From the NCBI GenBank assembly GCA_016934825.1, contig JAFGSB010000162.1:1-59060 (forward strand): a stretch of DNA of 59,060 nucleotides. Reading direction: 5' to 3'. The notes beneath the pieces are model-generated. The model searched no databases. It was given only the letters and a program-made list of their open reading frames with translations, and was not told the origin of the DNA. Below are positions 23,303 through 50,556 of the stretch, one piece after another (position 1 is the stretch's first letter; each line of letters begins with the position of its first letter). The position numbers and the translations under genes are program-made. This DNA is from Candidatus Zhuqueibacterota bacterium (GTDB taxonomy: Bacteria > Zhuqueibacterota > Zhuqueibacteria > Residuimicrobiales > Krinioviventaceae).

Positions 23303-23313
23303 TTAGGATCATT

Positions 23314-24321: not shown

Positions 24322-24417
24322 TTTTGATATTGATTTTGCTTATTTCTTTTATTAATTTTGAAATCCTAATTAAATATATGTATTCATTCATTATAAATAA
24401 TAAATTAACGGCGATAT

Positions 24418-25605
24418 ATGATCAAGTTGATTGTTACCCGGCAAAGATATGAGGGTTTGTTATCTGTCATTTCTTTTTTATTTTTGATTTTATCTTTTTT
24501 AGTTACTCAATCTGAATCCCGGGCGGATGTTATTCTTGCAGGACATGTTATTAACGGGACCAGGGACAGCTCCGCGGTAAAAAATATTACGGTAAAGTTA
24601 CAAAGGATGAAAACCGGCGACGAAGCGCCGGTCGATCTCGATAAAACAAATACCTCCGAAGACGGTGAGTTTAGATTTGTTATCAACAATTTTGATTCAT
24701 CGGCGTCTTATTTTTCCATGGTGAATTACCAAGGCGCCAGATATTACAGCGGTTCAGAACAGGCTCTTGCCCAAAAAATTGTGGTTTTTGATTCGACTCA
24801 TTCGTTGGATCATATCAGCACATTGATACATCATTTTTTAATTGATGATTTTGGAAGCGTCATAAATATCCGTGAAACCCGGATCATTCATAATCCCGAC
24901 ATGTATGCCATAACCGGCGGTATTCATGATACGCATATTGGCGAGGCCGTGCTTCAATTTTCACTTCCGGATAATTATTCAAATTTTAATCCCATTTCCG
25001 TATATTTCGGCAGCAATATATCGGCGCATGGTTCAACAGTTTATACCAATGCCGTGCTCTTTCCCGGTAACAGTCAAATTTCATATTCATACCAGGTTCC
25101 CTGGAATAAAAATTCTGCCAATATTACTTTGACATTGGGTCAGCATACCAGGTCTTTCGATATATTTATCAATAGCAGCGATGTCAATATCATTTCAAAT
25201 CAGCTACAGGATCTTGGACCGTTTAATATCCGCAATACGCAGTACAAAAGGTATAATGCAGCCGAACTCCATGCCGGTACGCCTGTCACTTTTACGATCC
25301 AGCGCGCCGGTCAGAAAAAGATCATTCCGTTACTGCCGGTTACTCTTGTTGCAATTGTACTTTTGGCCGGATCGGTTATCGGTCATTATTTAAATTCACG
25401 CGCAAAAGTACGGCCGGTTAAAACTGAAAAGGTCGATCTGGAAAACCGCAAAAACGAAATTATAGAAATTATTGCCAGGCTGGATACGGAAAAAAAGACC
25501 GAAAAAAATGACAACAGGAGAAAGGAATTATTCGAAGAACTGCAGAATATCGAATTATCGTTAATGGCAGGCAAGGATAGCCCTAAATCGCGAAAAAACA
25601 AATGA
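24418..25605 (+). CDS. Unknown ccm-cluster membrane protein
   Basis: A 395-residue protein: N-terminal signal or anchor (~12-35), an extracytoplasmic beta-rich part beginning with a carboxypeptidase-regulatory-like unit (GHVINGTRDSSAVKNITVKL, ~42-62), a second membrane helix (~304-325, LLPVTLVAIVLLAGSVIGHYL) and a cytoplasmic coiled-coil tail (~335-380). I do not recognise a named family. Its stop overlaps the ccmA start by 4 bases (ATGA), so it is translationally coupled to ccmA and very likely works in cytochrome c maturation or heme handover. Topology would place the beta domain beside CcmF and CcmC in the periplasm. Confidence 0.65.
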   Translation: MIKLIVTRQRYEGLLSVISFLFLILSFLVTQSESRADVILAGHVINGTRDSSAVKNITVKLQRMKTGDEAPVDLDKTNTSEDGEFRFVINNFDSSASYFSMVNYQGARYYSGSEQALAQKIVVFDSTHSLDHISTLIHHFLIDDFGSVINIRETRIIHNPDMYAITGGIHDTHIGEAVLQFSLPDNYSNFNPISVYFGSNISAHGSTVYTNAVLFPGNSQISYSYQVPWNKNSANITLTLGQHTRSFDIFINSSDVNIISNQLQDLGPFNIRNTQYKRYNAAELHAGTPVTFTIQRAGQKKIIPLLPVTLVAIVLLAGSVIGHYLNSRAKVRPVKTEKVDLENRKNEIIEIIARLDTEKKTEKNDNRRKELFEELQNIELSLMAGKDSPKSRKNK

Positions 25606-26288
25606 TCACTGCGCAAAATATCAGGAAATCTTTTGGTCATGCCCATGCTTTAAAAGGGGTCAATTTCCACATCAAAAAAGGCGAGTATGTTTCCCTGTTG
25701 GGAATAAACGGAGCCGGCAAAACAACGTTAATACGTATTATATCCGCATTAACCAAACCGACCGAGGGAAACATTATTGTTTCCGGAGTACCGCTGAAAA
25801 AAAATCCCAATTTAATCCGAAGGCTCATTGGTGTAATGAGCCATTTTACTTTTTTATATGGGGACATGTCCGCGGAAGAAAATTTAAAATTTTACGGTAA
25901 TATGTATAACGTGCCGGATTTGCATGATAAAATCGATCAGCTATTGGTTAAAGTGAACCTGAATACGCGGCGCTATGACCTGGTGCGGACATTTTCACGC
26001 GGTATGCAGCAGCGGCTGTCCCTGGCGCGGGCTATTTTGCATGATCCGCACATACTGCTGCTTGATGAGCCGTTTGCCGGTTTGGATGTTAATGCCGAAA
26101 AATTATTGACGGACCTGATACATGATTACGTCTCCGGCGGTATGACTATTTTGCTGACAACTCATGATATAAATTACGCCCTGCGGCACTCTCAAAGAAT
26201 TTTTGTTTTGAAAGAAGGTGAACTGGTCAAAGATGATGTTTCAGGGGCTTTGACCCGGAATGAGATAGCCGAGTTATTGTCGGTTTAA
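25602..26288 (+). CDS. ccmA: CcmA heme-export ABC ATPase
   Basis: A 228-residue ABC ATPase: Walker A GINGAGKTT (~35-43), signature FSRGMQQRLSLARAI (~130-144), Walker B ILLLDEP (~150-156) and a D-loop GLDV, then the H-loop TTHD. With CcmB and CcmC it forms the complex that loads heme on CcmE and releases holo-CcmE by ATP hydrolysis. The 4-base overlap with the upstream gene and the downstream ccmB/ccmC/ccmD fix the assignment despite general similarity among ABC ATPases. Confidence 0.9.
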   Translation: MITAQNIRKSFGHAHALKGVNFHIKKGEYVSLLGINGAGKTTLIRIISALTKPTEGNIIVSGVPLKKNPNLIRRLIGVMSHFTFLYGDMSAEENLKFYGNMYNVPDLHDKIDQLLVKVNLNTRRYDLVRTFSRGMQQRLSLARAILHDPHILLLDEPFAGLDVNAEKLLTDLIHDYVSGGMTILLTTHDINYALRHSQRIFVLKEGELVKDDVSGALTRNEIAELLSV

Positions 26289-26361
26289 TATTCATGATTC
26301 AACTGTACTATAAAAAAAAATACATAAATATAGGATTTTCAGTCTAAATCGATAAAAGATA

Positions 26362-27039
26362 ATGATCGCTTTGAAACAAATACTGGCTATTTTACGCAAA
26401 GACATTTTGCTGGAGTTGCGCAGCAAGGATATCATTGTTTCGATGTGCGTTTTTGCTTTTATAGTGGTCATCGTATTCAATTTTACATTTGATCCGACCA
26501 CACAGCAGATCAAAATATCGGCTCCGGGAATTTTGTGGGTCGCGCTTTTATTTTCCGGAAACATCGGATTAAGCCGGTCATTCGCGCGGGAACAGGAGAA
26601 CAGTATGATGCAGGGCGTCTTGTTATGTCCGGTTGACCGGAGTTTGATATATATCGCCAAAGTCATCGGTAATGTCATTTTTATGACAATAGTTCAGCTC
26701 ATCATTTTGCCGGTTATGGTTATATTGCTCGATCTGTCCATCGGGCATGTTCTTCCGCAGTTACTTGTGGTTTTATTTTTAGGTACCCTGGGATTTGCCG
26801 GTATCGGCACCCTGTTTTCGACCATCTCGGCCAATACAAAATCCAGGGAAGTTATGCTGCCAATTTTACTTTTCCCGGTCTCCGTACCTGTTATATTGTC
26901 GGCAACCAAAAGTACAGCGTATTTATTAAGCGGCAAAGATATAGGTCAGAGTTTATCCTGGATCAAACTGCTGGTCGGTTTTGATGTTATTTTTTTAGTT
27001 ATCTGTTTTTTATTGTATGAATATGTCATTGAAGAATAG
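26362..27039 (+). CDS. ccmB: CcmB heme exporter membrane subunit
   Basis: A 225-residue protein with six predicted membrane helices. The N-terminal cytosolic segment KQILAILRKDILLELRSKDIIVSM and the later RSFAREQENSMMQGVLLCPVDRSLIY are typical of CcmB. It is the membrane partner of CcmA. Seventy-three bases of AT-rich DNA separate it from ccmA. Length and gene order are normal. Confidence 0.92.
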   Translation: MIALKQILAILRKDILLELRSKDIIVSMCVFAFIVVIVFNFTFDPTTQQIKISAPGILWVALLFSGNIGLSRSFAREQENSMMQGVLLCPVDRSLIYIAKVIGNVIFMTIVQLIILPVMVILLDLSIGHVLPQLLVVLFLGTLGFAGIGTLFSTISANTKSREVMLPILLFPVSVPVILSATKSTAYLLSGKDIGQSLSWIKLLVGFDVIFLVICFLLYEYVIEE

Positions 27040-27050
27040 CGGGATTTATT

Positions 27051-27737
27051 ATGAAAAATATTAAATTAACATATTTGGTTTTGATTGTCATCACCTATAT
27101 GCTTGTTTTAACGGGTTTGTACCTCGCTTTTATATACGCGCCGCCCGAAAAAACAATGGGTGATGTACAAAGAATATTTTATTTTCATGTGCCATCGGCC
27201 TGGGTTTCGTTTATCGCGTTTTTTGTCGTGTGTCTTGCCGGTATCATTTTTTTAAAGACCGGGAAAGAACAATGGGACCGGTTGGCTGCCAGTTCGGCGG
27301 AAATCGGGGTATTATTTATCGTTATTGTTCTCATTACGGGCCCGTTATGGGCCAAGCCTGTCTGGAACACCTATTGGACCTGGGATCCCCGCCTGACAAC
27401 TTCGTTTGTTCTTTTTCTGATTTATGCGGCTTATTTAATGTTGCGAAGTTATGTGTCGAATAAAGAACGCGGAGCCCGTTTTGCAGCGGTTTTCGGTATT
27501 ATCGGATTTGTTGATGTTCCGATTGTTTATATGTCAATTCGATGGTGGCGAACCCAGCACCCGACCCCCGTTATCGGCGGCGGCAGCGGCAGCGGCCTGG
27601 CCCCCGAGATGCTGACTACTTTAATGTTTTGTCTGCTTGCGTTCACCTTTCTTTACATCACTTTACTTGTTTTACGGTACCAGAGCGAAGGAGTGGTTAA
27701 GGAGTTTCAGGCGCTCAAACATAAATTACAAAATTAA
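27051..27737 (+). CDS. ccmC: CcmC heme handling protein
   Basis: A 228-residue six-helix membrane protein with the WWD motif (WAKPVWNTYWTWDPRLTT, ~101-118) and the flanking His in FHVPSAW (~47) and near IRWWRTQHP (~170). CcmC binds heme at the periplasmic face and attaches it to CcmE. Eleven bases separate it from ccmB; ccmD follows. CcmE itself is not found in the window. Confidence 0.92.
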   Translation: MKNIKLTYLVLIVITYMLVLTGLYLAFIYAPPEKTMGDVQRIFYFHVPSAWVSFIAFFVVCLAGIIFLKTGKEQWDRLAASSAEIGVLFIVIVLITGPLWAKPVWNTYWTWDPRLTTSFVLFLIYAAYLMLRSYVSNKERGARFAAVFGIIGFVDVPIVYMSIRWWRTQHPTPVIGGGSGSGLAPEMLTTLMFCLLAFTFLYITLLVLRYQSEGVVKEFQALKHKLQN

Positions 27738-28709: not shown

Positions 28710-30626
28710 ATGAAAAAAATAATGGTTTTGCCTGTTTTCCTCCTTGTTTTTTCGATAAATTTTTTATTTGCCCAGGATAATTGTTTTGATTGCCATGGAG
28801 AAAAAGAATTTACTCGCACATTGGAATCCGGTGAAGAACAGTCTTTATTTGTTGATAAAGAAAGTTATCAACAATCTGTTCATGGCGAATTCAGTTGTCA
28901 GGATTGCCATATGGATGCCGAAGGGGACCCTCATCCTGACAGACTTGAAAAGGTACAATGTGAAAACTGCCATGAAGGTATCAGGGATAATACGAAAATT
29001 GGGATACATCAACAACTATTACTTGACGGCGATCCCGATGCTCCGACCTGCTCCAGTTGTCACGGTACGCATGATATTTTAAGTTCAACTGACGAAAAGT
29101 CAAAAACCTATTCCGTAAATTTACCCCATACATGCGGACAATGTCATCAGAGTAACGGAAAAGCGGCAATCCGGGAACCGGAAATAGACAAGCCATATGA
29201 AAGATTTGAAAAGGGAGTGCATGGCACCGCCCTTGCTGCAGGAAACAATGAAGCGGCAAGCTGTAATGATTGCCATGAAAGCCATACTCTGTTGCCGAAA
29301 TCCGATCCCGACTCGCCGATTTTTCGAACCAATATTTCCAAAACCTGTGGTAAATGTCATGAGGATATTACAAAAGAATTTAACGAAAGTATCCATGGCG
29401 TCGCACTGGCAAGAGGGGAATTCGATTCGCCGACATGTACCAACTGTCACGGCGAACATGAAATCTTATCTCCCCAGGACCCCAATTCACCCACTTTTCA
29501 GTTAAATTTGACCGAGCAAACCTGTGCTCCCTGTCATGGATTGCTGAAATTAAATGAAAAGTATGGATTTTTACCCGATATTGTCGATTCCTATTCAAAC
29601 AGCTATCATGGTTTAGCTTCCGTGGGCGGTTCAAAAGTCGCGGCTAATTGTACCAGTTGTCATGGAATACATAATATTTTTTCACATTATGATCCACGGT
29701 CGACGATCTACCCGGCAAATTTGAAAAAAACCTGCGGTAACTGTCATTTGAACGTGACCGAAGCATTCACCAAAAGTTATATTCACGCCAATCCCGCATC
29801 ATTAGAGGACAAGCTTGCGTCGATTATTAAGGAAATTTATATATGGTTAATTATCGTTGTCATCGGCGGTATGGTGCTTCATAACTTTATTATCTGGATG
29901 AGCTATGTCCGCGCTAAAATACGCAAGCTAAAGGAAGAAGAAACAATTCAACGGTTCGATAAATGGTGGGTCATACAACATGTAACGACCCTGGTAACCT
30001 TTATATTGCTTGTTATCACCGGTTTTGCGCTTAAATTTCCCGATTCCTGGTGGGTCAAAGCATTGTCGACAATCGGTTTCACGGAGACTTTGCGCGGTAT
30101 AATACATCGGGTGGCGGCAGTTACTATGCTTTTGGCCGGAGTATATCATCTCTATTATCTCTTTTTCGTGAAAAGCTGGAAGGGAGAATTGAATGAATTG
30201 TTACCCAAGCCGAGCGATGTCCCTTTATTTATTCAAAATATAAAATATCATTTAAATGCCAATAAAAACAAAAATGTAAGGAGACCCAGATTTCATAAAT
30301 ACGGTTATATCGAAAAAGCAGAATACTGGGCTCTTATATGGGGAACTGTTATTATGGCCTTTACCGGTTTTGTATTGTGGTTCCCTACACTGGCAACAAA
30401 ATACTTTCCGGCCTGGATTATCAAAGTATCCGAAACCGTTCATTTTTATGAAGCCATTCTCGCGTCCCTGGCAATTTTGTTATATCACATGTTTTTTGCA
30501 ATTTTCCATCCGGAAGACTATCCGTTAAACCTGACAGGTTTTACCGGTAAAATACCGGAAGAAGAAGCTAAAGAAAGATATCCCGAGTGGGTTAAAAAAA
30601 TCGAAGATCACTCGCAAAACAGGTAA
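28710..30626 (+). CDS. 11-heme cytochrome c / cytochrome b fusion (CbcL-like)
   Basis: A 638-residue inner-membrane protein: signal peptide 1-21, periplasmic part with eleven CXXCH sites (Cys25 to Cys342), then a membrane part (~376-600) with four to five helices resembling the diheme b-type subunit of hydrogenases and formate dehydrogenases (VIQHVTTLVTFILLVITGF, RGIIHRVAAVTMLLAGVYHLYY, with helix histidines). The c/b fusion matches the idea of Geobacter CbcL, a quinone oxidoreductase; CbcL has far fewer c hemes. It likely passes electrons between the quinone pool and periplasmic cytochromes. Paralogous to the next gene, 75 bases away. Confidence 0.85.
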   Translation: MKKIMVLPVFLLVFSINFLFAQDNCFDCHGEKEFTRTLESGEEQSLFVDKESYQQSVHGEFSCQDCHMDAEGDPHPDRLEKVQCENCHEGIRDNTKIGIHQQLLLDGDPDAPTCSSCHGTHDILSSTDEKSKTYSVNLPHTCGQCHQSNGKAAIREPEIDKPYERFEKGVHGTALAAGNNEAASCNDCHESHTLLPKSDPDSPIFRTNISKTCGKCHEDITKEFNESIHGVALARGEFDSPTCTNCHGEHEILSPQDPNSPTFQLNLTEQTCAPCHGLLKLNEKYGFLPDIVDSYSNSYHGLASVGGSKVAANCTSCHGIHNIFSHYDPRSTIYPANLKKTCGNCHLNVTEAFTKSYIHANPASLEDKLASIIKEIYIWLIIVVIGGMVLHNFIIWMSYVRAKIRKLKEEETIQRFDKWWVIQHVTTLVTFILLVITGFALKFPDSWWVKALSTIGFTETLRGIIHRVAAVTMLLAGVYHLYYLFFVKSWKGELNELLPKPSDVPLFIQNIKYHLNANKNKNVRRPRFHKYGYIEKAEYWALIWGTVIMAFTGFVLWFPTLATKYFPAWIIKVSETVHFYEAILASLAILLYHMFFAIFHPEDYPLNLTGFTGKIPEEEAKERYPEWVKKIEDHSQNR

Positions 30627-30701
30627 AAAAATATTATACTAAAAGGGGGAAATTATTTTTTTTGCATATGAAACAGTATTCAACATATCGAATATTATTT
30701 T

Positions 30702-33530
30702 ATGATTAAAGAAAAATTGATTTTATGTAAAGGTTTCCGGAGCTTAATAAAACTCTTTGGAGTTTTATTTGTCCTTATTGTCTTTTCGTTTTTATCAGTC
30801 AATATGCTTCATTCTGCCGAAGATGAAGATTGTTATGTTTGTCATTCCGACCCGACCCTGACAATGGAAAAGGATGGTAAAACAATCTCACTTTTTGTTA
30901 AAGAAGGAATTCTTAAAGGTACGGTCCATGAGGGTAATGGCTGTGTATCATGTCATGTTGACGCAGACGTTACTGAATTTCCTCATGATACCCCCCTGCA
31001 AAAGGTGGATTGTTCCATGTGTCATGATGAGGTCACGGAAGAATATAATAACAGTTCCCATGGCAGGGCATTGGCCACAGGTGATGCTGATGCACCAGAC
31101 TGTGTGGATTGTCATGACAAACATAAAATACTGAATACAAAAAATCCCAATTCTCCGTCTTATATCATGAATATTCCCGCTACCTGCGGTCAGTGTCATC
31201 GTGAAGACAGTGAAATAGCCAGACGACACAGATTACCGCAGCAGGATATTATTCAGAATTATACCATGTCTATTCATGGAGAAGGGTTGTTTCAGGGGGG
31301 ATTGATAGTTACCGCCGTTTGCACCAACTGTCATACTTCACATAATGTACTGCCTCATACCGATCCCAAATCGACAATTAACCGGGATAATATCGCAACG
31401 ACCTGTATGAATTGTCACGCACAGATTGAGAAAGTACATCAGAAGGTGATTCGCGGCGAGTTATGGGAAAAACAACCTCATGCCATTCCGGCCTGTGTGG
31501 ATTGCCATTCCCCGCATAAAATTCGTCGTGTGTTTTACGCGGAGGAATTTACCGATCATTATTGCATGGAATGTCATGAGAATAAAGATCTGACGAGAAC
31601 CCTTGAGGACGGAACCGTTGATTCTTTATATGTTGATATGCAAAGTATCTCACATTCGGTACATGGACAGAAAATTTCCTGTGTGAAATGTCATACTAAT
31701 GTGAGCAGGGGCAGATATCCGGTATGTAAAGATTCCGGTAAAATAGATTGTTCGATCTGTCATGTTGAGGTTGCCGACCATTTTTATGAAAGCATACATG
31801 GACAGTTATTGTTAAAAGAAGATGAAAACGCGCCGACTTGTACTAATTGTCATGGTGGACATAATGTATTGTCCAAAACTGATCTCAAGTCTCCGACCTT
31901 TGTCCGTAATATTCCGACGCTTTGCGCCCAATGCCACAGGGAGGGGGAAAAAGCCGCGGTTCGTTATACGGGACCGGAAACCCAGGTTATCAGTCATTAT
32001 ACCATGAGTATTCATGGTAAAGGTTTGTTTGAAAGCGGATTAATGGTATCGGCAGTTTGCAGCGACTGCCATACGCCGCATGAAACCCTTCCTGCGGACA
32101 ATCCCAAATCAAGCGTCAATCCCGCCAATGTCGGGCAAACATGCGCGAACTGTCATCTGGGTATTTATGAACAATTTAAGAGTTCCATCCACAGCAGGGA
32201 AGTTTCGCACACGGATAAAAAACTACCGGTTTGTAATGACTGCCACAAGTCCCATGAAATTGAACGTGTTGACCAGAGCGATTTCCGGTCGGCAATTTTA
32301 CAGCAGTGCGGGCACTGCCACGAGGACGTGACCGAAACATATTTTGAGACCTATCATGGTAAAGTATCCAAACTGGGTTCGGCCAAGGCGGCCAAATGCT
32401 CGGATTGCCACGGATCGCACAATATTTTACCGACGACCAACCAGGCGTCTACATTAAGCCGTCAGAATATTGTGGAAACATGTAAAACATGTCATCCCAA
32501 TTCAAACAGGAAATTTGCCGGTTATTTGACGCATGCAACACATCACAATAAAAACAAATATCCCGTATTGTTCTATACGTTTTGGTTCATGACTCTACTG
32601 GTTATCGGTGTGTTCACCTTTTTCGGCATCCATACCTTATTATGGATCCCGCGCTCGATCCGGGAACGTTTAAAACTTAAATCAAAGCTGGCAAAACATC
32701 CGCGTCGATATGTGCAGCGGTTCAGTGTATTTCCGAGAATCATACATTTACTGGTTATTATCAGCTTTTTCGGGCTGGCTCTAACCGGAATGAGTCTGAA
32801 ATTTTCACAATATAACTGGGCTTTGAGCATCAGTCATTTCTTCGGCGGTGTGGAAGCGGCGGGTATAGTACACCGTTTGTGCGCATTGATTACTTTTCTT
32901 TATTTCGGATTACATTTTGTGTATATTTATCGTGGCGCGAAAAAGGAAAATATAAGCTTTTTTAAATTCATGTTCGGTCCTGAAGGGATGATGCCGCGAA
33001 AACGCGATTTTGTGGAATTTTTTCAAACTTTTCTCTGGTTTATGGGTCGAAAAAAAGCGCCACAATACGGTCGTTGGACCTATTGGGAAAAGTTTGATTA
33101 CTTTGCCGTCTTCTGGGGTGTTGCGGTCATAGGTTCTACCGGTCTGGTTTTGTGGTTTCCGGAATTTTTTACCAAATTTATTCCCGGTTATTTAATCAAT
33201 GTCGCCACCATAATTCATAGCGATGAGGCGCTGCTTGCAACCGGTTTTATATTTACGATCCATTTTTTCAACACACATTTTCGTCCCCAAAAATTCCCGA
33301 TGGACCAGGTTATATTTACCGGCAAAGTACCTTATGATGAGTGGAAACATGAAAGACCCAGGGAATATGAAATCTTGAAAGCAAGCGGCAAACTTGATGA
33401 ATTGACAAAAGACAGACCCCCAAAACGCTGGCTGATCATCTGGTCCAGGATTTTCGGCTTCTTCTTTTTAATTTTAGGTTTTTCACTTGTTGGGTTGATT
33501 ATCTGGGCCATGATCTTTCAATATAAATAG
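30702..33530 (+). CDS. 19-heme cytochrome c / cytochrome b fusion
   Basis: A 942-residue inner-membrane protein: signal anchor ~18-36, nineteen CXXCH sites (Cys44 to Cys594), then a membrane b-type domain (~620-930) with an added terminal helix. The c part is an internal duplication: unit 1 (~44-287, eight hemes) and unit 2 (~288-530, eight hemes) repeat TMSIHGEGLF/TMSIHGKGLF and VCTNCHTSH/VCSDCHTPH, followed by three more hemes. Unit 2 also resembles the start of the upstream 11-heme protein (TRTLE.G...SL.VD). The b domain carries LTGMSLKFSQ and IVHRLCALITFLYFGLHF with likely heme histidines. A large membrane-bound quinone/cytochrome electron conduit; partner not proven. Confidence 0.86.
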   Translation: MIKEKLILCKGFRSLIKLFGVLFVLIVFSFLSVNMLHSAEDEDCYVCHSDPTLTMEKDGKTISLFVKEGILKGTVHEGNGCVSCHVDADVTEFPHDTPLQKVDCSMCHDEVTEEYNNSSHGRALATGDADAPDCVDCHDKHKILNTKNPNSPSYIMNIPATCGQCHREDSEIARRHRLPQQDIIQNYTMSIHGEGLFQGGLIVTAVCTNCHTSHNVLPHTDPKSTINRDNIATTCMNCHAQIEKVHQKVIRGELWEKQPHAIPACVDCHSPHKIRRVFYAEEFTDHYCMECHENKDLTRTLEDGTVDSLYVDMQSISHSVHGQKISCVKCHTNVSRGRYPVCKDSGKIDCSICHVEVADHFYESIHGQLLLKEDENAPTCTNCHGGHNVLSKTDLKSPTFVRNIPTLCAQCHREGEKAAVRYTGPETQVISHYTMSIHGKGLFESGLMVSAVCSDCHTPHETLPADNPKSSVNPANVGQTCANCHLGIYEQFKSSIHSREVSHTDKKLPVCNDCHKSHEIERVDQSDFRSAILQQCGHCHEDVTETYFETYHGKVSKLGSAKAAKCSDCHGSHNILPTTNQASTLSRQNIVETCKTCHPNSNRKFAGYLTHATHHNKNKYPVLFYTFWFMTLLVIGVFTFFGIHTLLWIPRSIRERLKLKSKLAKHPRRYVQRFSVFPRIIHLLVIISFFGLALTGMSLKFSQYNWALSISHFFGGVEAAGIVHRLCALITFLYFGLHFVYIYRGAKKENISFFKFMFGPEGMMPRKRDFVEFFQTFLWFMGRKKAPQYGRWTYWEKFDYFAVFWGVAVIGSTGLVLWFPEFFTKFIPGYLINVATIIHSDEALLATGFIFTIHFFNTHFRPQKFPMDQVIFTGKVPYDEWKHERPREYEILKASGKLDELTKDRPPKRWLIIWSRIFGFFFLILGFSLVGLIIWAMIFQYK

Positions 33531-38038: not shown

Positions 38039-39286
38039 CTAAGATTTTTGTTCGGACGCCCTGATATAGAGAATCAGGAGTACGGCAACAAGCAATGTTA
38101 AAACGACCATAATAATAAGCATTTGTCTTCTATGTCCAACTTCCTTTAAAGCCTGCTGTCCGATAGATAACGCCTCGTTTGCGGCTTCCAGACCGGCGTC
38201 GGTGCTTTCTTTCATTTTATCAAGGGAGAATGTATGAATTTGTGTTCTCGCATGAACGAGCGCATCATTGGCATTGGTAAATGTCATATTTTCGTCTTTA
38301 ACTTCCACACCGGCTCTTTGCGCTTTTGAAAGCATTATCTCGGCATTGTTGATTTTATGAACAAGTGTATCTAAAACTGAACGCATTTGTGCCGCAATCC
38401 TGTAACCGTCTGAATCTTTGTCATGGCATTGAACACATATCGCGTTTTCCGCTACTCCCAGCATATTATCATCTGCGGCCTGAATGGCATGATTACCATG
38501 ACAGGCTTCACATTCCGTCAATCCCATATCGTCAAATGCCGCTTTGTGCGGGCTTCCGGAGAAATATTCCGATTGTATTACGTGACAAACTCCACATATA
38601 TTTGCGATCGACATAACTCCGGGCGGACTGGCGCCGTGATTGCCGTGACAATCATTACATGTGGGCGCGCTCAAATCACCTTTTTCATACAACAGGTTTG
38701 CATGTATACTTTTTTTGTATTCCGTTAATTGATCCGTACTGATTGAATAATCCTGCATATAATCAGGATCGGAATGGCACAGCCCGCATAAATCGGCGAT
38801 ATTGGTCGGGAATACCGGGGATGTTGGATCATCGGTGCGTTTTATATCATGCACACCATGGCAACTGGCGCACGTTGCCGCATTTCCGTCCCCTTTTGCC
38901 AGTAGTTCTCCATGTTTGCTGGTTTTGTAGCGGTCATATTGTTCGACGGAGATATTCGGATCAAAATTTCTCATGTACAATGCATCGCTGTGGCATTTGG
39001 CGCAGAGTTGCGGAATTTGTAATCGATCCGGTCTGCCGATAAATCCTTTTTGTGGGGACATGGATAATTCAGGATCTTCCTGATTCGGATCTCCGCCATG
39101 ACAGCCTGTGCAGTTAATTTGTGCATGACTGTGGACACTGCCCTCAAGTTGTTCAACAGGGGTTGATAACGGCGGGTCAAGTTCGCTGTGACAGTTGATA
39201 CAGGTGTTTGGTTGTCCGCTGTTCTGGGCAAAACAGGGAAAAGCGGCATATAATGTTATTAGTGCATAAAGTATTCTTGTATTCAA
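38039..39286 (-). CDS. Membrane-anchored nonaheme cytochrome c of the Rieske/cyt b operon
   Basis: A 415-residue protein: signal peptide 1-20 (...PCFAQ), nine CXXCH sites (CINCH at Cys29, then CTGCH, CAKCH, CASCH, CGLCH, CNDCH, CGVCH, CEACH, CVQCH), a helical stalk, and a C-terminal membrane anchor (~385-408). I set the start at TTG 39286, seven bases after AAGGA and 26 bases after the cytochrome b stop; a longer frame would overlap the cytochrome b gene. It takes the place of cytochrome c1 in the operon, so it probably accepts electrons from the Rieske protein and hands them to other multiheme carriers. Confidence 0.85.
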   Translation of the reverse strand: MNTRILYALITLYAAFPCFAQNSGQPNTCINCHSELDPPLSTPVEQLEGSVHSHAQINCTGCHGGDPNQEDPELSMSPQKGFIGRPDRLQIPQLCAKCHSDALYMRNFDPNISVEQYDRYKTSKHGELLAKGDGNAATCASCHGVHDIKRTDDPTSPVFPTNIADLCGLCHSDPDYMQDYSISTDQLTEYKKSIHANLLYEKGDLSAPTCNDCHGNHGASPPGVMSIANICGVCHVIQSEYFSGSPHKAAFDDMGLTECEACHGNHAIQAADDNMLGVAENAICVQCHDKDSDGYRIAAQMRSVLDTLVHKINNAEIMLSKAQRAGVEVKDENMTFTNANDALVHARTQIHTFSLDKMKESTDAGLEAANEALSIGQQALKEVGHRRQMLIIMVVLTLLVAVLLILYIRASEQKS

Positions 39287-39312
39287 AATAATATCCTTAA
39301 TTTGTTTTTGGT

Positions 39313-40389
39313 TTAATCGAAAAAATATGATATAGCGGTTAAAGCAATAATATAAAGAACCAATATAATACCGATTACCGTGAAAGTCCGGCTGTGCAAA
39401 TTTTTTTGTCCCTTTCGATCCAAAAACGGGATAAAAATCCACAAAACTACTGCTATTGCAATGGCAAAAATTGCCAGGGATTCTCCGCTAAAGCTCAGTA
39501 TTTTGCCCGGAATATATTTTAAGGTTTGGAACAGAAAGACAAAAAACCATTCCGGTTTAATACCCTGAGGGGCAGACGCGTAGGGATCGGCCTTTTCACC
39601 CAGTTCCCAGGGAAAGATTGCCGCCAAAATGCCCAATAATCCCAGTACAAGCAGCCAGCCAACCGCATCCCGCAACATAAAATCAGGAAAAAATTTCATG
39701 CTTTTTGGTTTTTTTTCATATTCTTCACTCAGGGAGGGTGGCACGCTCATTCCCTGCGCCTGTATTAAAATAATATGTATAACCAGAAAAAGCGCAGTAA
39801 TCAAGGGCAGTAAGGCAACATGGAATCCGAAAAAACGGGTCAATGTCGCACCGGTGACTTCTTCGCCTCCGCGCAGAAAAATAAGAACATCATGTCCGAT
39901 TACGGGGATCACGGCGGCCATTTCAGTCCCGACTTTGGTGGCAAAGAAAGCGAGTTTATTCCATGGTAAAAGATAACCGGAAAAACCGAATGCCAGCGCC
40001 AGTATTAGTAAAAATGCTCCAGAAATCCAGGTCAATTCCCTTGGTTTACGATAGGCCTTCATAAAGTAAGTACTGAACATATGTATGAAAAGAAAAAAGA
40101 TCATTAAATTGGCGCCCCAGCTGTGTATGGAGCGGATCAGCCAGCCAAATCGTACCGATGTCATGATGAATTCAACGGATTCAAAAGCGTTTTCCGCAGT
40201 AGGCCGGTAATACAACAATAACAGGATGCCGGTCAATACCTGGATGATATAAAGAAATAAAGTGATGCCGCCGATTCCGTACCAAAAATGATATTTGTGT
40301 ACCGGTACCACTTTTTTGTCTGCAAAGTTGCTGATGCCGCTAAGGTCCAGCCGGTCGTTAACCCAGTTATAAAATTTTTCAATTTTCAC
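39313..40389 (-). CDS. Cytochrome b of a Rieske/cytochrome b complex
   Basis: A 358-residue, eight-helix protein joining the cytochrome b6-like four-helix part (~35-215) and the subunit-IV-like part (~235-358). Heme ligands are visible: His89/His103 and His190/His205, the latter pair with the 14-residue spacing of the b6 type. The quinol site motif appears as PEWF ([11 protein letters not shown]) rather than PEWY. The start is GTG 40389 after TTTAGGAGAA, 13 bases after the Rieske stop; the longer frame would overlap the Rieske gene. It oxidises quinol and passes one electron to the Rieske cluster and one across the membrane. Confidence 0.92.
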
Positions 40390-40402
40390 TGATAATATTC
40401 TC

Positions 40403-40852
40403 CTAAACTTTTTTAGAAACAAGAATATCCTCACCGCTCGTAAAAACATCAAATGCTTCCAATGGTGAAGGCGGAGGTCCCGATGATACATTTCCATTCA
40501 GATCAAATTTAGCATTATGACAGGCGCACCAGATCATTTTAAAATCTTCCCGATACTGGACCGTGCATTGCAAATGGGTACAAACAGCTGAAAAGGCGCG
40601 GTACTCTCCGTTGGGCAGCCGTATGAGAATTGCCGGTTTATTATTAAAGGGAAAGGTTTTTGCACTGTTGGGGGAGAGTTCATCCACTTTTGCTGCTTTG
40701 ACTGTATTTTGTGAGGATTCGGCTAATTTGGGGGGCATAATAAATCGCAAAACCGGGTAAAGCAACATCCCTAAAAATGCGACAAGTCCTGTAAAAAGAC
40801 TCCAGCCAATAAAGTGCCTTCTGCCCGATTTGCTTGTTTTTTCTTTTACCAT
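40403..40852 (-). CDS. Rieske iron-sulfur protein
   Basis: A 149-residue protein: Tat-like N-terminus with a membrane anchor ([23 protein letters not shown], ~9-31) and a C-terminal 2Fe-2S domain. Cluster motifs are CTHLQC (Cys91, His93, Cys96) and CACH (Cys109, Cys111, His112); Cys91, His93, Cys109 and His112 are the expected ligands, and Cys96-Cys111 the disulfide. It is the first enzyme gene of the Rieske-cyt b-nonaheme operon, 94 bases after the MerR gene. Confidence 0.93.
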
Positions 40853-41829: not shown

Positions 41830-44568
41830 ATGAAAAAAGGATTTTTTACAGCACTTGTATTCGTGATTTCACTGTGCACAACATTTGTCGTTGCCCAGGC
41901 GGCAAATCCGATAATTGTTGTTGAATCATTCAGCCCGGCTGAGATCCATGAATTGGGTTTGCACTCCGTATCCGGAGGATTAACAACCGTAGGGACGGGA
42001 GAACTGGTTTATCTTTCAGCCCTCGATTCCAGTTCATATACATGGTCCATAATTGACCAGCCCGATGGCTCTGCCGCCACTTTGGACAGCACAGATACAA
42101 GAATGACGACATTCCGTCCGGATGTAACAGGACAATTTGAAATACAATTATCCACAACGGAGGGAGATACAACAGTCGTAATTACCAGTTCAACATTTGT
42201 TGGCGCGGGTATACCTGAAGAGTGCGTTGCTGATCCATATGAAAGCGGCTGTTTTTGCCATAATACGAAAGTTACTGAATGGGCAGCATCCGGCCATGCA
42301 TACCTTTTTCAATTAGGTATTGAGGGCAAAGATAGTCCAAGCAGTCATTACAATGAAGGTTGTATTGAATGTCATACTCTTGGTTTTAATACTGACCCGG
42401 AAGCCGTTAACGGGGGTTTTGATGATGTTGCCCTGGAAGTAGGCTGGGAATTTCCTGAAACATTGAAAGAAGGGAATTGGGCTGATCTGAAAACAAATTA
42501 CAGAAAACTGGCCAAATTAGCCAGCATCCAATGCGAGAATTGCCATGGACCGGCCAGTGAACACAGGTACGATTTCAAACCGGAAAAAATGGCCGTTTCT
42601 GTGGATGCCGGTGTTTGTCATGTCTGTCATGATGAACCATGGCGACATAAAAACAGTAAACAGTGGAAGAATTCGGTACATAATTTTGATCAACTGGGTT
42701 CGCATCCGACAAATTCAGGTTGCCAGCCCTGCCATAGCGGTTCAGGTCTGGTGGAATATTTGGGCGGTTCAAAATGGAACCCGAATAATCCGGGCAATGT
42801 CTCCTGTGCGGCCTGTCATGACCCCCATACCGCGGAACTTCGTGAAGCTAAACCCGTTGTACTGGAGAACGGTGTAGCTATTGATTTTGGAGGCGAAGGT
42901 CTGTTATGTATGACCTGTCATCATGATCGTCGTGATGCCCCCGTATATGCGGAAGAATATCATTCCCGTTTCGGTCCGCATCATAGTCCACAGACGGATA
43001 TGCTTGCCGGTACCAATGCTATTACATTCGGATTGCATATTCCGAGTTCAACACACAGAGATGCCATTCCCAATTCCTGTGTAGACTGCCATATGGCGCC
43101 AACCCCCGGCAGCGGTGTTGAACCGGCCGAGGGCCAGTATGGACGGGATTATATTGGCGAACATTCTTTTGCCATGAGCTGGGACGGCGGAACTCCTGAC
43201 GATGAAAGCGATGATATTGATAATGTCATCGCCTGTGAACGCTGTCATGGCGCTTTAACAACTTTTGACGATATCAAAGCCAGAGAGGATTATGACGGCA
43301 ACGGTAAAATCGAAGGTGTTCGTGTGGAACTTAAGGGTATACATGACCAGGTCGGTATGTTACTGCCGCCGGTCGGCGAACCTTCTGTATCAGTCACCTC
43401 AAGTTATAATAAAATCCAGCTAAAAGCTGCCTATAATCACGCGTTTATCGAAGATGACGCCAGTTTTGGTATGCATAATTACCAGTTTGCTATTGGCTTG
43501 ATGAAAGTATCAAAAGCCGCATTGGAATACGGTATTCTTTCCGCCGGTCAAATTCTCGGTGTCGCTGACATTCCAAATGATCAGGGTAAACAGGTCAGAG
43601 TGAGCTGGGACCGTTTCGGAGGCGACGGCGTCAGTGATAATCCGGTTAGAACTTATGCAGTTTTACGACGCATCGATGCTCCGATGGCTGTGATTAAAAA
43701 GAATAATAAAAATTTGATCGAGTCGTTTGAAGCAATGGCATCTTTAACCGATAATGTCACTCCGGGAACTCAAGTGGCACTTGAAGACGGCGGTTGGGAT
43801 GTGGTTGGAATTGTACCTGCCGCTGCTGCGGAACAATACAATGCCGTGGTTCCGACATTGTATGATTCCACCAAAGACGCCGGCGTTCAGTTCTCCGTAT
43901 TCAGAGTTATGGCGATAACCGGCATGCCGGCAATAAATGCGGTATCCGCGCCGGACAGCGGTTACTCGATTGATAACCTGGCTCCGGCTCCGCCCGCCAA
44001 TGTTGCAGGCACTATTATTGAAGCCGGTGCTGAATTGACATGGGACGAATCGATTGATGCTGATTTTAAATATTTCACTGTTTATCGAAGCATGTCAAAG
44101 AATTTCAATCCTGCAAACGCTGAAGCCATTGCCAAGATTTCCGAAACCCGGTACGTAGACGCGACCATTGAAGCGGGCAAAACCTATTACTACAAAGTTA
44201 CCGCAACGGACTTTGCAGGTAATGAAGGTCTGGGTTCTTCTGAAGTAACCGTTATAGTTATGGGTATTTATAGTGAAAATGCCATTCCGACAGAGTTTAT
44301 TCTGAACCAGAATTACCCGAATCCGTTTAATCCGAGTACGGTAATTCGTTTCGGATTGCCGGGTGTACAGCAGGTTACCGTAAAGATATATGATATTCGC
44401 GGTTCGCTGGTACGTACACTTGCGCAGGGAAGATTCTCTGCCGGATACCATAATTTGACATGGGATGGCCGGGATGAATCTGGTCAACTCGTGAGTGCAG
44501 GTACGTATATTTATCAAATCGTATCCGCGTCCGAAAAGATCAGCAAGAAGATGGTTTTCCTCAAGTAA
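41830..44568 (+). CDS. T9SS-secreted multiheme cytochrome c
   Basis: A 912-residue exported protein: signal 1-24, an Ig-like beta domain (~27-125), a c554/multiheme region with eight CXXCH sites (Cys178 to Cys469) plus an unusual CFCH at Cys141-His144 placed where a first heme would be (FCHNTKVTEWAASGHA), a middle domain of unknown type (~500-720), a fibronectin-III-like domain (~725-815), and a T9SS type A sorting domain (~825-912, NQNYPNPFNPSTVIRFGLPG ... SAGTYIYQI). The sorting domain predicts export across the outer membrane, which makes this a strong candidate cell-surface electron-transfer protein. Good GGAGGA ribosome binding site, own promoter and terminator. Confidence 0.92.
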   Translation: MKKGFFTALVFVISLCTTFVVAQAANPIIVVESFSPAEIHELGLHSVSGGLTTVGTGELVYLSALDSSSYTWSIIDQPDGSAATLDSTDTRMTTFRPDVTGQFEIQLSTTEGDTTVVITSSTFVGAGIPEECVADPYESGCFCHNTKVTEWAASGHAYLFQLGIEGKDSPSSHYNEGCIECHTLGFNTDPEAVNGGFDDVALEVGWEFPETLKEGNWADLKTNYRKLAKLASIQCENCHGPASEHRYDFKPEKMAVSVDAGVCHVCHDEPWRHKNSKQWKNSVHNFDQLGSHPTNSGCQPCHSGSGLVEYLGGSKWNPNNPGNVSCAACHDPHTAELREAKPVVLENGVAIDFGGEGLLCMTCHHDRRDAPVYAEEYHSRFGPHHSPQTDMLAGTNAITFGLHIPSSTHRDAIPNSCVDCHMAPTPGSGVEPAEGQYGRDYIGEHSFAMSWDGGTPDDESDDIDNVIACERCHGALTTFDDIKAREDYDGNGKIEGVRVELKGIHDQVGMLLPPVGEPSVSVTSSYNKIQLKAAYNHAFIEDDASFGMHNYQFAIGLMKVSKAALEYGILSAGQILGVADIPNDQGKQVRVSWDRFGGDGVSDNPVRTYAVLRRIDAPMAVIKKNNKNLIESFEAMASLTDNVTPGTQVALEDGGWDVVGIVPAAAAEQYNAVVPTLYDSTKDAGVQFSVFRVMAITGMPAINAVSAPDSGYSIDNLAPAPPANVAGTIIEAGAELTWDESIDADFKYFTVYRSMSKNFNPANAEAIAKISETRYVDATIEAGKTYYYKVTATDFAGNEGLGSSEVTVIVMGIYSENAIPTEFILNQNYPNPFNPSTVIRFGLPGVQQVTVKIYDIRGSLVRTLAQGRFSAGYHNLTWDGRDESGQLVSAGTYIYQIVSASEKISKKMVFLK

Positions 44569-44669: not shown

Positions 44670-45086
44670 TTAGTACTCCGGATTTAATATTTCATTTATT
44701 TTTTTGATCAGGACGTCAGGTTCGAGGGGTTTGTTCAAAAATATATCAACAGGCAGCCATTCCGTTCCGACATCCCTGTCAAAATGAAAATCATATTTTT
44801 TATGGATTGAACTGAGGATCATGATAGGTATATTTTTATACTCATTGTATTCCGAATCTGTTGACTTTGATCTGAGTGTCTGGGCAACGTGAAAGCCCTC
44901 GGTTAAATCATTCATCATGACATCAAGGATAATGAGGTCCGGCGTATCCTGTTTGACTTTTTGTAATCCTTCTACGCCGTTTTCGGCTTCAATCACTTTA
45001 AAACCATGAGATTCCAGGATAGTACGATAGTTTTCGCGCAGGTCTGCATTATCATCAATGATTAAAATTTTATTTTTAACTGGCAT
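44670..45086 (-). CDS. Single-domain response regulator
   Basis: A 138-residue CheY-like receiver with no output domain: acidic pair Asp11-Asp12 (ILIIDDN), phospho-acceptor Asp55 (LIILDVMMND), Ser in MILSS (~95), and Lys in LNKPLEPD (~119-126). I start at ATG 45086, just after GGGAGG; a TTG 15 bases upstream overlaps this site and is rejected. The histidine kinase gene is immediately upstream (24 bases), so they form a pair. Without a DNA-binding domain the regulator must act by protein contact or further phosphotransfer. Confidence 0.93.
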   Translation of the reverse strand: MPVKNKILIIDDNADLRENYRTILESHGFKVIEAENGVEGLQKVKQDTPDLIILDVMMNDLTEGFHVAQTLRSKSTDSEYNEYKNIPIMILSSIHKKYDFHFDRDVGTEWLPVDIFLNKPLEPDVLIKKINEILNPEY

Positions 45087-45110
45087 CTTAAAACCTCCCA
45101 AAAAAAATTA

Positions 45111-46714: not shown

Positions 46715-48694
46715 TTAAAAATTTGTCCAGATATAAGATTTATTTTCATCTGTATGACAAATCGTTTCACACGTTGCCGTTTCCCTGTTCCACTTCCATG
46801 CTTCTTTTACTTCGGCGTGAGGTGTATTGTCGATATGCTTGGGATCGTCAAACGAATCATATACCTCGTGACAGTACTCGCAGGATTTAAATTTATCGAC
46901 ATGAAGCCGATGCGCACCAACACCAATAAAAGAAGTTTCTGTATTGTTATTCAGATCCTCCGGAGGTGCACTATTTTTACCGAAACCGTGACAAACATTA
47001 CACGCTTCCGGGCCTTCTTCTTCAAAGTGGCATTTATTGCAGGCTTCCCCGGAACTTCCGCCGGAATAATCAACCCCATGACAGGATTTACAGTTATCCA
47101 TGGACCAGTTTGCCTGTCTGATATAGTTGCCGTGAAATTCCTCATTTCCTTTATTGCCGTAGAAATCTGACACATGCGGGTAGCCATTATGACAGGTGTA
47201 ACAAGAAACATTTGAGGTTCCGCCTTTATAATCTGTTCCATGACAAATCTGACATGATTCTGAAGAATAGTCGGCTTCTTTTACAAACTGGCCATGAAAT
47301 TTATCACTGTTTTGAGTCAGCCAGTCTGTAACATGGGGATAATTGTTATGGCAGGTGAAACAGGAAATTTTACTGGAACCGCCCGTATAATCTTCACCGT
47401 GACAGAGTTGACAGCCCTTCAAGTCATAATTCAGTCCGTTTAAAAACGCGCCGTGATATTCACTTGATGACGTGACACTCCAGTTATCGTTATGCGGATA
47501 ACTTGTGTGACATTTGAAACAGGACACCTCGGAAGTACCACCGGTATTATCGCTGCCGTGGCAGAGCTGGCAGGATTCCAGCGAATAATTATTGTTTTTC
47601 AAATATTTGCCATGTGAGTTATCACCCGTTAACCAGTCCGACGCATGCGGGAAATTTCCATGACATTTATAACATGACACCTCGCTGCTGCCGCCCAAAA
47701 GATTGGTTCCATGGCAGGACTCACAGGCCGTTGTTTCGTAGTTCAGGTTTTTAAGAAATACTCCATGATTATCATTGGATGTGGCTTCCAGCCAGTTTTC
47801 ATTATGCGGGAATGAAGCATGGCATGTGTAACAGGATTTTCCCGATGTTCCGCCCTGGTAATTGGTTCCGTGACAAGACTGACAGGACTCGGAGGACCAT
47901 TCCGCGTTTTGTATATATGCGCCGTGAAATTCAGAGCTGCCCGAATTTATCCACGCTTCGGTATGCGGATAATTCTCATGACATTTATAACATGAAAGCT
48001 CACTGCTGCCGCCTTTATAGTCCGTTCCGTGACAACCCTGGCAACTAATTGCGGACCAGTTCAATGATTGTAACAATTTGCCATGAAAATTTCCGGATGA
48101 CTCTCGCGTCCAGCCATCATCGTGCGGAAAATACGAATGGCATTTTTCACAGGAAATGCCGGTGCGTCCGCCGGTTTCGTCAACACCATGACATTTCTCG
48201 CAGGCTGTTAATATATCTTCGTTCTGTTTGACATAGGTGCCATGATAATTATCACTTGCGGAATTTAACCAGCCCTCTAAATGAGGATAAGAGGAATGAC
48301 ATTTAAAACATGAAACTTCACTGCTGCCGCCTTTATAATCCTGTCCATGACAGTCCTGGCAATTCTGTATTACCCAGTTTAAATTCTTCAGGTACGTTCC
48401 ATGAAAATCACTGTCATCTTTTTTAATCCAGGTTTCACTGTGCGGATAGGATTTATGGCATTTAAAACAGGAAACTTTACTATCTCCGCCATCCAGATTC
48501 TCGCCATGGCATGAAGTACAGGAGCTATATCCTACGGTCGAAACTTTTGTCCCATGAAAATTCTCGGAACCCGCCTGCGACCAACTTTCGGGATGGGATT
48601 TGGATGGTAAAGGATTTTTATCATCTGAGCACCCATACCAGCTTAACGTAATGAATAGTAGCAGGGATATAATGAGTATACTAAATACTTTCAT
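46715..48694 (-). CDS. 23-heme lipoprotein built of ten di-heme modules
   Basis: A 659-residue lipoprotein (lipobox WYGC, Cys22). From Cys59 to ~570 it consists of ten tandem modules of ~53 residues. Each has two CXXCH sites 18 residues apart, a YPH or FPH histidine near position 27 and an [FY]HG histidine near position 40: pattern CxxCHGx[DN]xxGGxSxxSC, then xxCHxxYPHxxxW. So every module brings its own two extra histidines, enough for bis-His ligation of its hemes. After the modules come CNVCH, CEYCH and a CX3CH (CETICH), giving 22 canonical plus one unusual site. I know no characterised protein of exactly this layout. Probably an outer-membrane-anchored electron wire. AAAGG ribosome binding site. 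Confidence 0.9.
   Translation of the reverse strand: MKVFSILIISLLLFITLSWYGCSDDKNPLPSKSHPESWSQAGSENFHGTKVSTVGYSSCTSCHGENLDGGDSKVSCFKCHKSYPHSETWIKKDDSDFHGTYLKNLNWVIQNCQDCHGQDYKGGSSEVSCFKCHSSYPHLEGWLNSASDNYHGTYVKQNEDILTACEKCHGVDETGGRTGISCEKCHSYFPHDDGWTRESSGNFHGKLLQSLNWSAISCQGCHGTDYKGGSSELSCYKCHENYPHTEAWINSGSSEFHGAYIQNAEWSSESCQSCHGTNYQGGTSGKSCYTCHASFPHNENWLEATSNDNHGVFLKNLNYETTACESCHGTNLLGGSSEVSCYKCHGNFPHASDWLTGDNSHGKYLKNNNYSLESCQLCHGSDNTGGTSEVSCFKCHTSYPHNDNWSVTSSSEYHGAFLNGLNYDLKGCQLCHGEDYTGGSSKISCFTCHNNYPHVTDWLTQNSDKFHGQFVKEADYSSESCQICHGTDYKGGTSNVSCYTCHNGYPHVSDFYGNKGNEEFHGNYIRQANWSMDNCKSCHGVDYSGGSSGEACNKCHFEEEGPEACNVCHGFGKNSAPPEDLNNNTETSFIGVGAHRLHVDKFKSCEYCHEVYDSFDDPKHIDNTPHAEVKEAWKWNRETATCETICHTDENKSYIWTNF
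46985..48520 (-). repeat. Ten tandem ~159-bp coding repeats
   Basis: These are the DNA-level counterpart of the ten di-heme modules in the lipoprotein at 46715. Copies are diverged in sequence but keep the period (53 codons); the seventh boundary is shortened (WLTGDNSHG). They indicate growth of the gene by unit duplication. Confidence 0.85.
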
Positions 48695-49509
48695 GGATAT
48701 TTACCTTTATAATTATTAATTTGTCTTAAATGTAATTACTCCGGCCTTTCACCGATTTGGGTCAATTTTTAATATGTTTTGATAACTTTTTTTTGGTTAT
48801 GTTTGCTCTGTTTTATTTTTTTTCCTCCTGTTGTTTTTTGTAACTGTCCGACAGGGAATGTTTGCAGTCAATATCGGTTCATATCGTTGATAAAACATTG
48901 AAAAGTGTATACTGAAATATAAATATTCATTGATGATTCATTTCCTTTCCGAACTGATAGCCTGGATTTATATGAAATTCCGGGAAAATAAATTGTGCAT
49001 TAATATAGAAATGAGAATTATTAAAACAGAGGGTTAAAGTCATCATTATTTTCATTATATCCCTCGAATAAATCTTTAAGGACGCTTTATTAACGAAAAT
49101 AACAAATAAATAAAATTAAAATCAAGCAGTTTCACTATTTTTATTTTAGACTTTATTGTATTATGCTGAAGGTGAATGCGTAAATTACTCATATTTATTA
49201 CAAAAATTTAAATTAATAATTATTTTATCATATATCCACATTATTATAACAAATTTTAAAAAGAAAAATTTATTTAATTTTTAATCTCATAAAGTTTTAT
49301 TCCCCGAGGTTTGCTTTGGAATTTTTTTTTTGTAAATTACTGCATAACAAGTTTTTTCAAAGTCATAATATATCGGTATTACTATATCATTTTGTATATC
49401 CGGCAAAATACAGAACAGAGGTATTTAGTACGGAAGTAGATAAGCGGTGAACTATCTCTTGCTTGCTGCGAGATAGTTCTTCTCAAAAAAAATATATTAA
49501 GGTAATCTT
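48695..49509. other. Long AT-rich intergenic region
   Basis: An 815-base divergent spacer between the 23-heme gene and the 49510 gene. No credible ORF; the longest stretches with signal-like translations lack starts. AT-rich tracts dominate 48,760-49,400. A hairpin at 49449-49479 precedes the downstream gene. Confidence 0.5.
49449..49479 (+). promoter_or_regulatory. Hairpin in the leader of the 49510 gene
   Basis: A perfect 10-bp stem (GAACTATCTC / GAGATAGTTC) with an 11-base loop, 30 bases upstream of the ATG and followed by an A-rich stretch and an AAGG ribosome binding site. It could be an attenuator-like or protein-binding element, or the end of an upstream transcript; the missing T run argues against a plain terminator. 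Confidence 0.4.
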
Positions 49510-50556
49510 ATGAATAGAAATTTGTTTATTTTTATCCTGGCCATAAGTTTGTGCTGTTTGTCAATCTTTTGTTCGCACCAGAGGAAATCCGGCCCAAAGC
49601 GCTTTTTTTCTGATCACAGTTTCTGGAACACGCCTCTGCCGAAAGATCCGGCTATCGATCCGCGGAGTGATCTTTTTATCGGTTTGCTTAAAACCGAACC
49701 GACCGGCAATAACTTTGGCATTAATACCACGAAATGGACCATTCCGGTTTATGAGGCGGATGAAAGCACAAAAAGAGTGGATATAAATTTTCATTATCTT
49801 TCGGATAGTGAGAAAAAAATCTGGGCGACAACAAGAGAAAAATTCGGTCATGGCCCCGGTTTTGGCAAAGATGTGCCCATGCCGGACAACGCGACACCGG
49901 ACCCGGAGCAGGATTCCCATTTTGCCGTGATCGACCGGCAAAAAATGGTTGCCTGGGATATGTGGGGTCTGCGAAAGCATCCTGACGGCTCGTGGGAATC
50001 CAAAACCGGTATGAAATACAGGCTGGACGGCGACGGCGTTTTCAACACAAAAGATTTTGACGTGATCGACGGCGAGAGCATTCATTTTCACGGCCCGAGC
50101 AGGGCGGCAGGGGTGCCCGCCATTGCTGGATTGATAATGTACGATGAAGTGATATCGGGTGAAATCCGTCACAAGCTCGCCTGCGCGACCCGGTTCAATG
50201 CTTTCAAGGAATTCACTTTTCCCGCGGCATGGACGGATGGGAATGTGGACGGTGGAATTCCTGAGGGTGCAGTTATTCAACTCAATCCGGAACTCGATTT
50301 GACCCGGTTCGATTTGCTGCCGGGAGAAATTATTGTTGCCAAGGCTTTGCAGAAATACGGAATGGTCATTGTTGATAATGCAGGCGGAAGCACCCTGTAT
50401 GCCGAAGGTTTGTGGGGCCATGCCGATAAAACCTGGGACGGCATTCTGCGGGAATGGGACGGAGGGATCAATACGATTCCCCTGGAAAATTACCGCGTGC
50501 TAAAAATCGGCGAGATCACCCGTAAAGGTGACGGACGCTGGATAACTTATAATTAA
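49510..50556 (+). CDS. Conserved secreted lipoprotein of unknown function
   Basis: A 348-residue lipoprotein (lipobox LSIFC, ~Cys21). I recognise the general layout from many uncharacterised secreted bacterial proteins: SFWNTPLPKDPAIDPRSD at the N-terminus (~38-55), a central HFAVIDRQKMVAWDMWGLRK (~137-156), HGPSRAAGVPAIAGLIMYDE (~194-213), IPEGAVIQLNPELDL (~261-275) and AKALQKYGMVIVDNAGG (~289-305). No activity is known to me. The aromatic- and histidine-rich centre suggests a ligand-binding beta fold. It precedes a nitrilase-family gene by 34 bases and may form an operon with it. Confidence 0.7.
   Translation: MNRNLFIFILAISLCCLSIFCSHQRKSGPKRFFSDHSFWNTPLPKDPAIDPRSDLFIGLLKTEPTGNNFGINTTKWTIPVYEADESTKRVDINFHYLSDSEKKIWATTREKFGHGPGFGKDVPMPDNATPDPEQDSHFAVIDRQKMVAWDMWGLRKHPDGSWESKTGMKYRLDGDGVFNTKDFDVIDGESIHFHGPSRAAGVPAIAGLIMYDEVISGEIRHKLACATRFNAFKEFTFPAAWTDGNVDGGIPEGAVIQLNPELDLTRFDLLPGEIIVAKALQKYGMVIVDNAGGSTLYAEGLWGHADKTWDGILREWDGGINTIPLENYRVLKIGEITRKGDGRWITYN

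Follow-up and report, generated by a model that had tools for sequence, protein, structure and literature searches.

The window, by which we mean the whole 59,060-nucleotide stretch of DNA analysed, is an entire contig (C36) of a Candidatus Zhuqueibacterota genome, and its reverse strand encodes a 659-residue multiheme lipoprotein to which we give the working name c0. An earlier note made from the DNA alone had described ten modules of about 53 residues with two CXXCH sites each, attached to a lipid anchor and closed by a cap with CXXCH, CXXCH and CX3CH sites, for 23 heme sites in all; our analysis bears out each of these elements, and the gene is laid out as follows:

46715..48694 (-), c0, modular multiheme lipoprotein, 659 aa, 23 heme sites
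48629..48694 (-), signal peptide with the lipobox LSWYGC as read from the sequence, the predicted lipidated Cys22 being followed by SDDK
47027..48595 (-), ten di-heme modules, residues 34-556, each PH..HG..CXXCH-x12-CXXCH
46718..47026 (-), conserved triheme cap, residues 557-659, with CNVCH, CEYCH and CETICH and the ligands H595, H598 and H620

The heme motifs comprise 22 CXXCH and one CX3CH (CETICH, residue 642), a density of ~29 residues per heme, while 2000 shufflings of the c0 residues gave a mean of 0.2 CXXCH and a maximum of 3. Modules recur with a period of 53 residues, with two exceptions (one of 51 and one of 54), and the repeat is also seen at the DNA level as a 153/159-nt spacing. 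Identity among modules 2-9 is 39-59%, with module 1 (24-33%) and module 10 (28-44%) being more divergent. Recent growth through identical copies is ruled out, since the modules are merely 24-59% identical.

There are 47 histidines in c0, 23 of them proximal and 24 extra. The natural unit frame is PH(or HP)-x4-W ... HG ... CXXCHG-x12-CXXCH, set at the PH/HP start because the partner H34 (in SHP) lies ahead of the opening CXXCH pair and no PH follows module 10. In this frame H34 belongs to module 1, and the cap comes straight after module 10. The two further conserved histidines that had been proposed for every module are indeed kept, once the frame is corrected in this way. To survey them, 115 candidate modules were excised from 26 proteins, of which 113 satisfied a simple check that both extra histidines are there; one of the two that failed keeps both but carries a 3-residue insertion, and the other is no module, such that both histidines are retained in 114/114 genuine modules. 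The x12 spacing between CXXCH sites is likewise found in 114 of the 115 candidates. The modules of c0 take 20 of the extra histidines, while the cap supplies three conserved ligands: H595 and H620 are histidine in 15/15 capped relatives, and the H598 position has histidine in 13 of these 15 and methionine in the other 2, which fits a sixth heme ligand. H626, in contrast to these, varies among relatives. With 20 module histidines and three cap ligands, 23 hemes are matched to 23 conserved sixth ligands, and the conservation supports the earlier idea that two bis-His hemes are possible per module; if all sites are loaded, each module would carry its own pair. Separately, the cap residue at the H598 position is Met at L058 and L091, which suggests that one cap heme there has naturally exchanged a His ligand for Met.

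Profile searches place c0 in no described family. It exceeds the gathering cut-offs of PF14537 (Cytochrom_c3_2; 72.5 bits, cut-off 25), PF14522 (Cytochrome_C7; 62.6 bits, cut-off 24.8) and PF22113 (MtrC/MtrF domain II/IV; 43.3, threshold 30), but these are generic heme-motif matches and none describes the 53-residue module. The best PF22113 match is confined to positions 121-168 of a 176-position profile, and c0 has 23 sites rather than the 10 of the MtrC/OmcA decaheme family. No NCBIfam model scored above its cut-off, phmmer against PDB chains returned nothing significant (no solved filament subunit at E<=1), and a two-module profile run against the PDB yielded marginal matches only, with a best E of 0.0047 (NrfH). 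The search that the earlier note had called for, for a described family with the same module, has therefore turned up no curated family or solved structure in Pfam, NCBIfam or PDB. Relatives are nevertheless plentiful in whole genomes, with c0 homologues in 41/63 genomes of the class and 46/82 of the phylum, and at E<=1e-15 in 18 genomes outside the phylum by their kinship labels. A scan of named records with the 12-heme alignment led to MAGs of candidate division KSB1 and Calditrichota; a named-genome scan with the full c0 protein gave no match. Judged by sequence similarity, c0 is a member of an unnamed family found in candidate division KSB1/Calditrichota and beyond.

What varies in this family is the number of modules, n. 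The heme number is 2n+3, 2n+5 where a longer cap carries a CX4CH, or 2n where the cap is absent, and within the class n takes the values 2, 3, 4, 6, 9, 10, 12 and 14. A genome outside the phylum (G211) encodes a 1050-aa lipoprotein with n=18 and 40 heme sites (L074:8763-11915), with no porin or 12-heme gene near it. At the other extreme, a 138-aa form with two modules and no cap takes the same operon position in five relatives, L047:8938-9354 and L049:11743-12159 among them, and the cap is thus dispensable in some versions. A tree of the modules, which rests on few columns and is unsure in its deep forks, clusters first modules with one another (2 changes against a shuffled mean of 19.6) and last modules likewise (5 against 19.8), while middle modules group mostly by lineage. 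Alternate modules are sisters in several proteins (e.g. m02/m04, m03/m05), as if modules were copied two at once. End modules are common to the family, and middle modules have multiplied separately in each lineage, often in twos.

In most relatives, c0 does not stand alone. It is the last of three contiguous genes on one strand, c2-c1-c0, at 15/19 class loci, where c2 encodes a ~396-aa outer-membrane beta-barrel (the porin) and c1 a 12-heme periplasmic cytochrome. The same row is found at L077, L079, L080, L081, L090 and L091, in the wider phylum or beyond. Co-occurrence is strong, with c2 present in 41/41 class genomes that have c0 and in 5/22 that lack it (Fisher p 2.6e-11, ignoring shared ancestry), and c1 present in 40/41 of those with c0. 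AlphaFold models the c2 of the source genome as a 22-strand barrel (pLDDT 83.5) that is closest, among the matches listed, to 22-strand TonB-dependent receptor barrels (Z 21.4, rmsd 3.9, 329 aligned) but, unlike these receptors, has no plug. No MtrB-type chain was among the matches listed in the c2 structure searches (Foldseek, VIA), an absence that is uninformative. The c1 protein has 12 hemes and a signal sequence, with a predicted periplasmic location, and its first half matches c7-type domains of solved proteins. An outer-membrane electron conduit is defined by a periplasmic multiheme cytochrome, a barrel and an outer redox lipoprotein, where the outer-surface parts vary most (PMC6148476). 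Together c1, the barrel c2 and c0 supply these three elements, c0 being the redox lipoprotein by virtue of its lipobox Cys22, a Ser at +2 and 23 heme sites with predicted loading.

Two giant relatives with 14 and 12 modules (L035:7272-12787 and L036:1948-6953) come after a barrel-like protein of 653 aa and a small lipoprotein with 3-5 hemes. The barrel-like protein has no Pfam match, no homologue of the one at L035 was detected in the source genome, and the pair is perhaps a second kind of conduit.

The source genome itself departs from the usual row, with c0 on the window and c1 and c2 on another contig, C42. The genes surrounding c0 are the following:

48695..49509 (strandless), AT-rich gap of 815 bp with no gene called, the place of the 12-heme and porin genes in a same-genus genome (G001)
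49510..50556 (+), flanking gene outside the system, a marker of the ancestral locus, whose orthologue adjoins c2 in L039
45111..46475 (-), histidine kinase, the next gene downstream of c0, whose orthologue lies directly after porin-12heme-c0 in L043 (47% identity)
44670..45101 (-), response regulator, whose L043 orthologue (64% identity) keeps this gene order
41830..44568 (+), T9SS-tailed multiheme cytochrome of 912 aa (TIGR04183 35.6 bits, cut-off 23), a possible extracellular partner
40403-40852 (-), Rieske protein, orthologue adjoining the conduit in L079, L081, L084 and L037
39313-40497 (-), cytochrome b, orthologue adjoining the conduit in L079, L081 and L084
38039-39442 (-), 9-heme cytochrome, orthologue adjoining the conduit in L079, L081, L084 and L037

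The genes bounding the gap, c0 before it and the 49510 gene after it, are orthologous between the window and L039, and G001 shows c0-c1-c2 and then the orthologue of 49510-50556. At L043 the order is c2-c1-c0-kinase-regulator, of which the window retains c0-kinase-regulator. From this synteny with G001 and L043, c0 appears to have remained while its partners were lost from the spot. On C42, a rhodanese-repeat lipoprotein and a 10-heme protein precede c1 and c2, as they also do in L046, L047, L049 and L080, and C42 may carry a conduit that functions without c0. That C42 is an assembly or binning artefact was rejected, its GC being 39.8% versus 40.3% and its tetranucleotide distance of 0.16 lying within the window's own 0.105-0.18. 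The rhodanese-repeat lipoprotein and 10-heme protein ahead of the porin (L050:5580-7685, on C42) recall ExtH of Geobacter; membership of the set in ExtHIJKL was rejected despite this lipoprotein, as no NCBIfam Ext model scored above its cut-off.

Other redox genes of the window also have counterparts beside conduits. Orthologues of the T9SS-tailed cytochrome adjoin the conduit in L033, L034, L041, L051 and L084, and the source genome also encodes SprA of the type IX system. The Rieske/cytochrome b/9-heme set (38039..40852) is likely the quinol-side electron source, as the position of its orthologues beside conduits suggests. Further along the window, two adjacent large membrane proteins (28710-33530) have 11 and 19 CXXCH sites together with a part resembling cytochrome b, the second being 74% identical to a relative, and positions 18077-27737 hold cytochrome c maturation-like genes (CcmF-like, an ABC-type pair and CcmC-like by sequence inspection) that are syntenic with a same-genus genome.

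The explanation we favor, and consider probable, is that c0, with its lipid anchor, forms the outer subunit of a porin-cytochrome conduit and grew longer through tandem duplication of a di-heme module. Electrons would pass from the quinol pool through the Rieske/cytochrome b/9-heme complex to the 12-heme c1 in the periplasm, from c1 through the 22-strand barrel c2 to the string of ten c0 modules, and from these to an outside acceptor, which could be a mineral, an electrode, another cell or a T9SS-secreted cytochrome; the path might run outward or inward. How c0 would dock on c1/c2, the direction of flow and the acceptor are our suppositions. Because each module would hold its own two bis-His hemes, a gain of modules would add hemes with no redesign of the c0 ends. 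The modular wire of the earlier note is a plausible function, but that proposal had overlooked the porin and 12-heme partners, the variable module number and the split of c0 from the conduit. Surface exposure of c0 is suggested by the operon type and, weakly, by its C-SDDK start, which is similar to the SDDDD and SDDFE signals for surface export in Bacteroidota (PMC5080379), although against 20 other predicted lipoproteins the SDDK motif is not sharply distinct. Counting against this explanation are the separation of c0 from c1 and c2 in the source genome, the cap-less forms, and the two giant relatives (n=12 and 14), which keep c0 apart from their own c1/c2 locus.

The hemes of c0 are probably in contact along the chain, given that its residues per heme match those of GSU1996 and that solved multiheme cytochromes show parallel or T-shaped packing in the vast majority of their heme pairs (PMC12954529). 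We estimate that a chain of 23 hemes would be about 20 nm long. An AlphaFold model of modules 7-10 plus the cap (29-row alignment) had a pLDDT of 59 and a pTM of 0.32, too poor for heme distances. More tentatively, and with somewhat less than even confidence, c0 could be an evolutionarily length-tunable lead, in which modules are gained or lost between fixed docking ends, often two together, shifting the reach of a surface conduit between ~4-7 and 33-40 hemes in one continuous chain; a module would then correspond to one repeat of the stacked/T-shaped heme pairs of cytochrome filaments.

The estimated length also suits a different placement, in which c0 sits in the inner leaflet of the outer membrane and spans the periplasm, connecting inner-membrane complexes to c1 or other acceptors. 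As a lipoprotein whose surface signal is unproven, c0 could face inward, ~20 nm is near the width of the periplasm, and c0 is unlinked from the porin in the source genome. However, a range of 2 to 14 modules within one class is odd for a protein spanning a fixed gap, relatives pair c0 with a barrel and a separate soluble periplasmic 12-heme protein, and T9SS-secreted cytochromes are encoded alongside; we regard this placement as unlikely. Less likely again is that c0 mainly stores electrons when an acceptor is absent, its length reflecting capacity rather than reach. Charge storage is expected of any 23-heme chain, and the periplasmic multiheme wires of Geobacter have been suggested to work in this way (PMC10138318), but the membrane anchor and the operon with the porin and c1 indicate transfer across the outer membrane, with which storage can coexist. 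That c0 is a subunit of an extracellular filament like OmcS, OmcE or OmcZ, as its heme density and repeated units might suggest, is highly improbable given its lipid anchor, its lack of sequence similarity to any solved filament subunit and a repeat already contained within one chain, which makes polymerization unnecessary.

On the outer-subunit reading, the family offers a heme count that is an integer times two plus a fixed cap, in natural versions of 2 to 18 modules. This makes testable both the distance and speed of electron transport along a single protein heme chain and whether selection tunes reach. It also carries conduits, and their probable quinol-side donors with them, into candidate division KSB1/Calditrichota, on which a limited search of open papers turned up little more than the presence of multiheme cytochromes. 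Within the incomplete coverage of the open literature, we found no paper on a lipid-anchored conduit subunit with a variable number of two-heme modules.

Among known systems, the Geobacter conduits (OmcB-type, ExtABCD, ExtEFG) and MtrCAB follow the same three-part logic with a varying surface part, and the periplasmic cytochromes ExtA and ExtG have 12 hemes (PMC6148476). In contrast to these, c0 is a string of uniform di-heme modules with n = 2 to 14 in the class, neither it nor the c2 barrel has a named family, and c0 is unlinked from its partners in the source genome. The earlier note knew of no characterised cytochrome with so regular a repeat layout, a view not borne out by GSU1996, the 'monomeric nanowire' of Geobacter, in which four tandem triheme domains hold 12 hemes in ~42 kDa, 3-5 A apart edge to edge (PMC10138318). 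Both GSU1996 and GSU2210, with its 27 hemes (PMC10138318), resemble c0 in carrying many hemes along one chain, and GSU1996 also repeats a small domain with similar residues per heme. However, the GSU1996 domains are c7-like triheme units with one His-Met heme each, in a periplasmic protein with no lipid anchor, while c0 is di-heme, predicted to be bis-His, lipid-anchored and distinctly capped, and does not carry domains of that type. OmcS, OmcE and OmcZ share with c0 the use of heme chains for long-range transfer, and in OmcS and OmcE the repeat is a pair of hemes (PMC9473688), but they polymerize from separate subunits that lack lipid anchors and show no sequence match to c0. Nor are 23 hemes a record, being modest beside the 86 reported for one Desulfuromonas protein (PMC12133095). 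Repeat-built heme wires and porin-cytochrome conduits are thus already known, and what is new is a putative conduit subunit on a lipid anchor, assembled from uniform two-heme units in widely differing numbers between ends that stay fixed.
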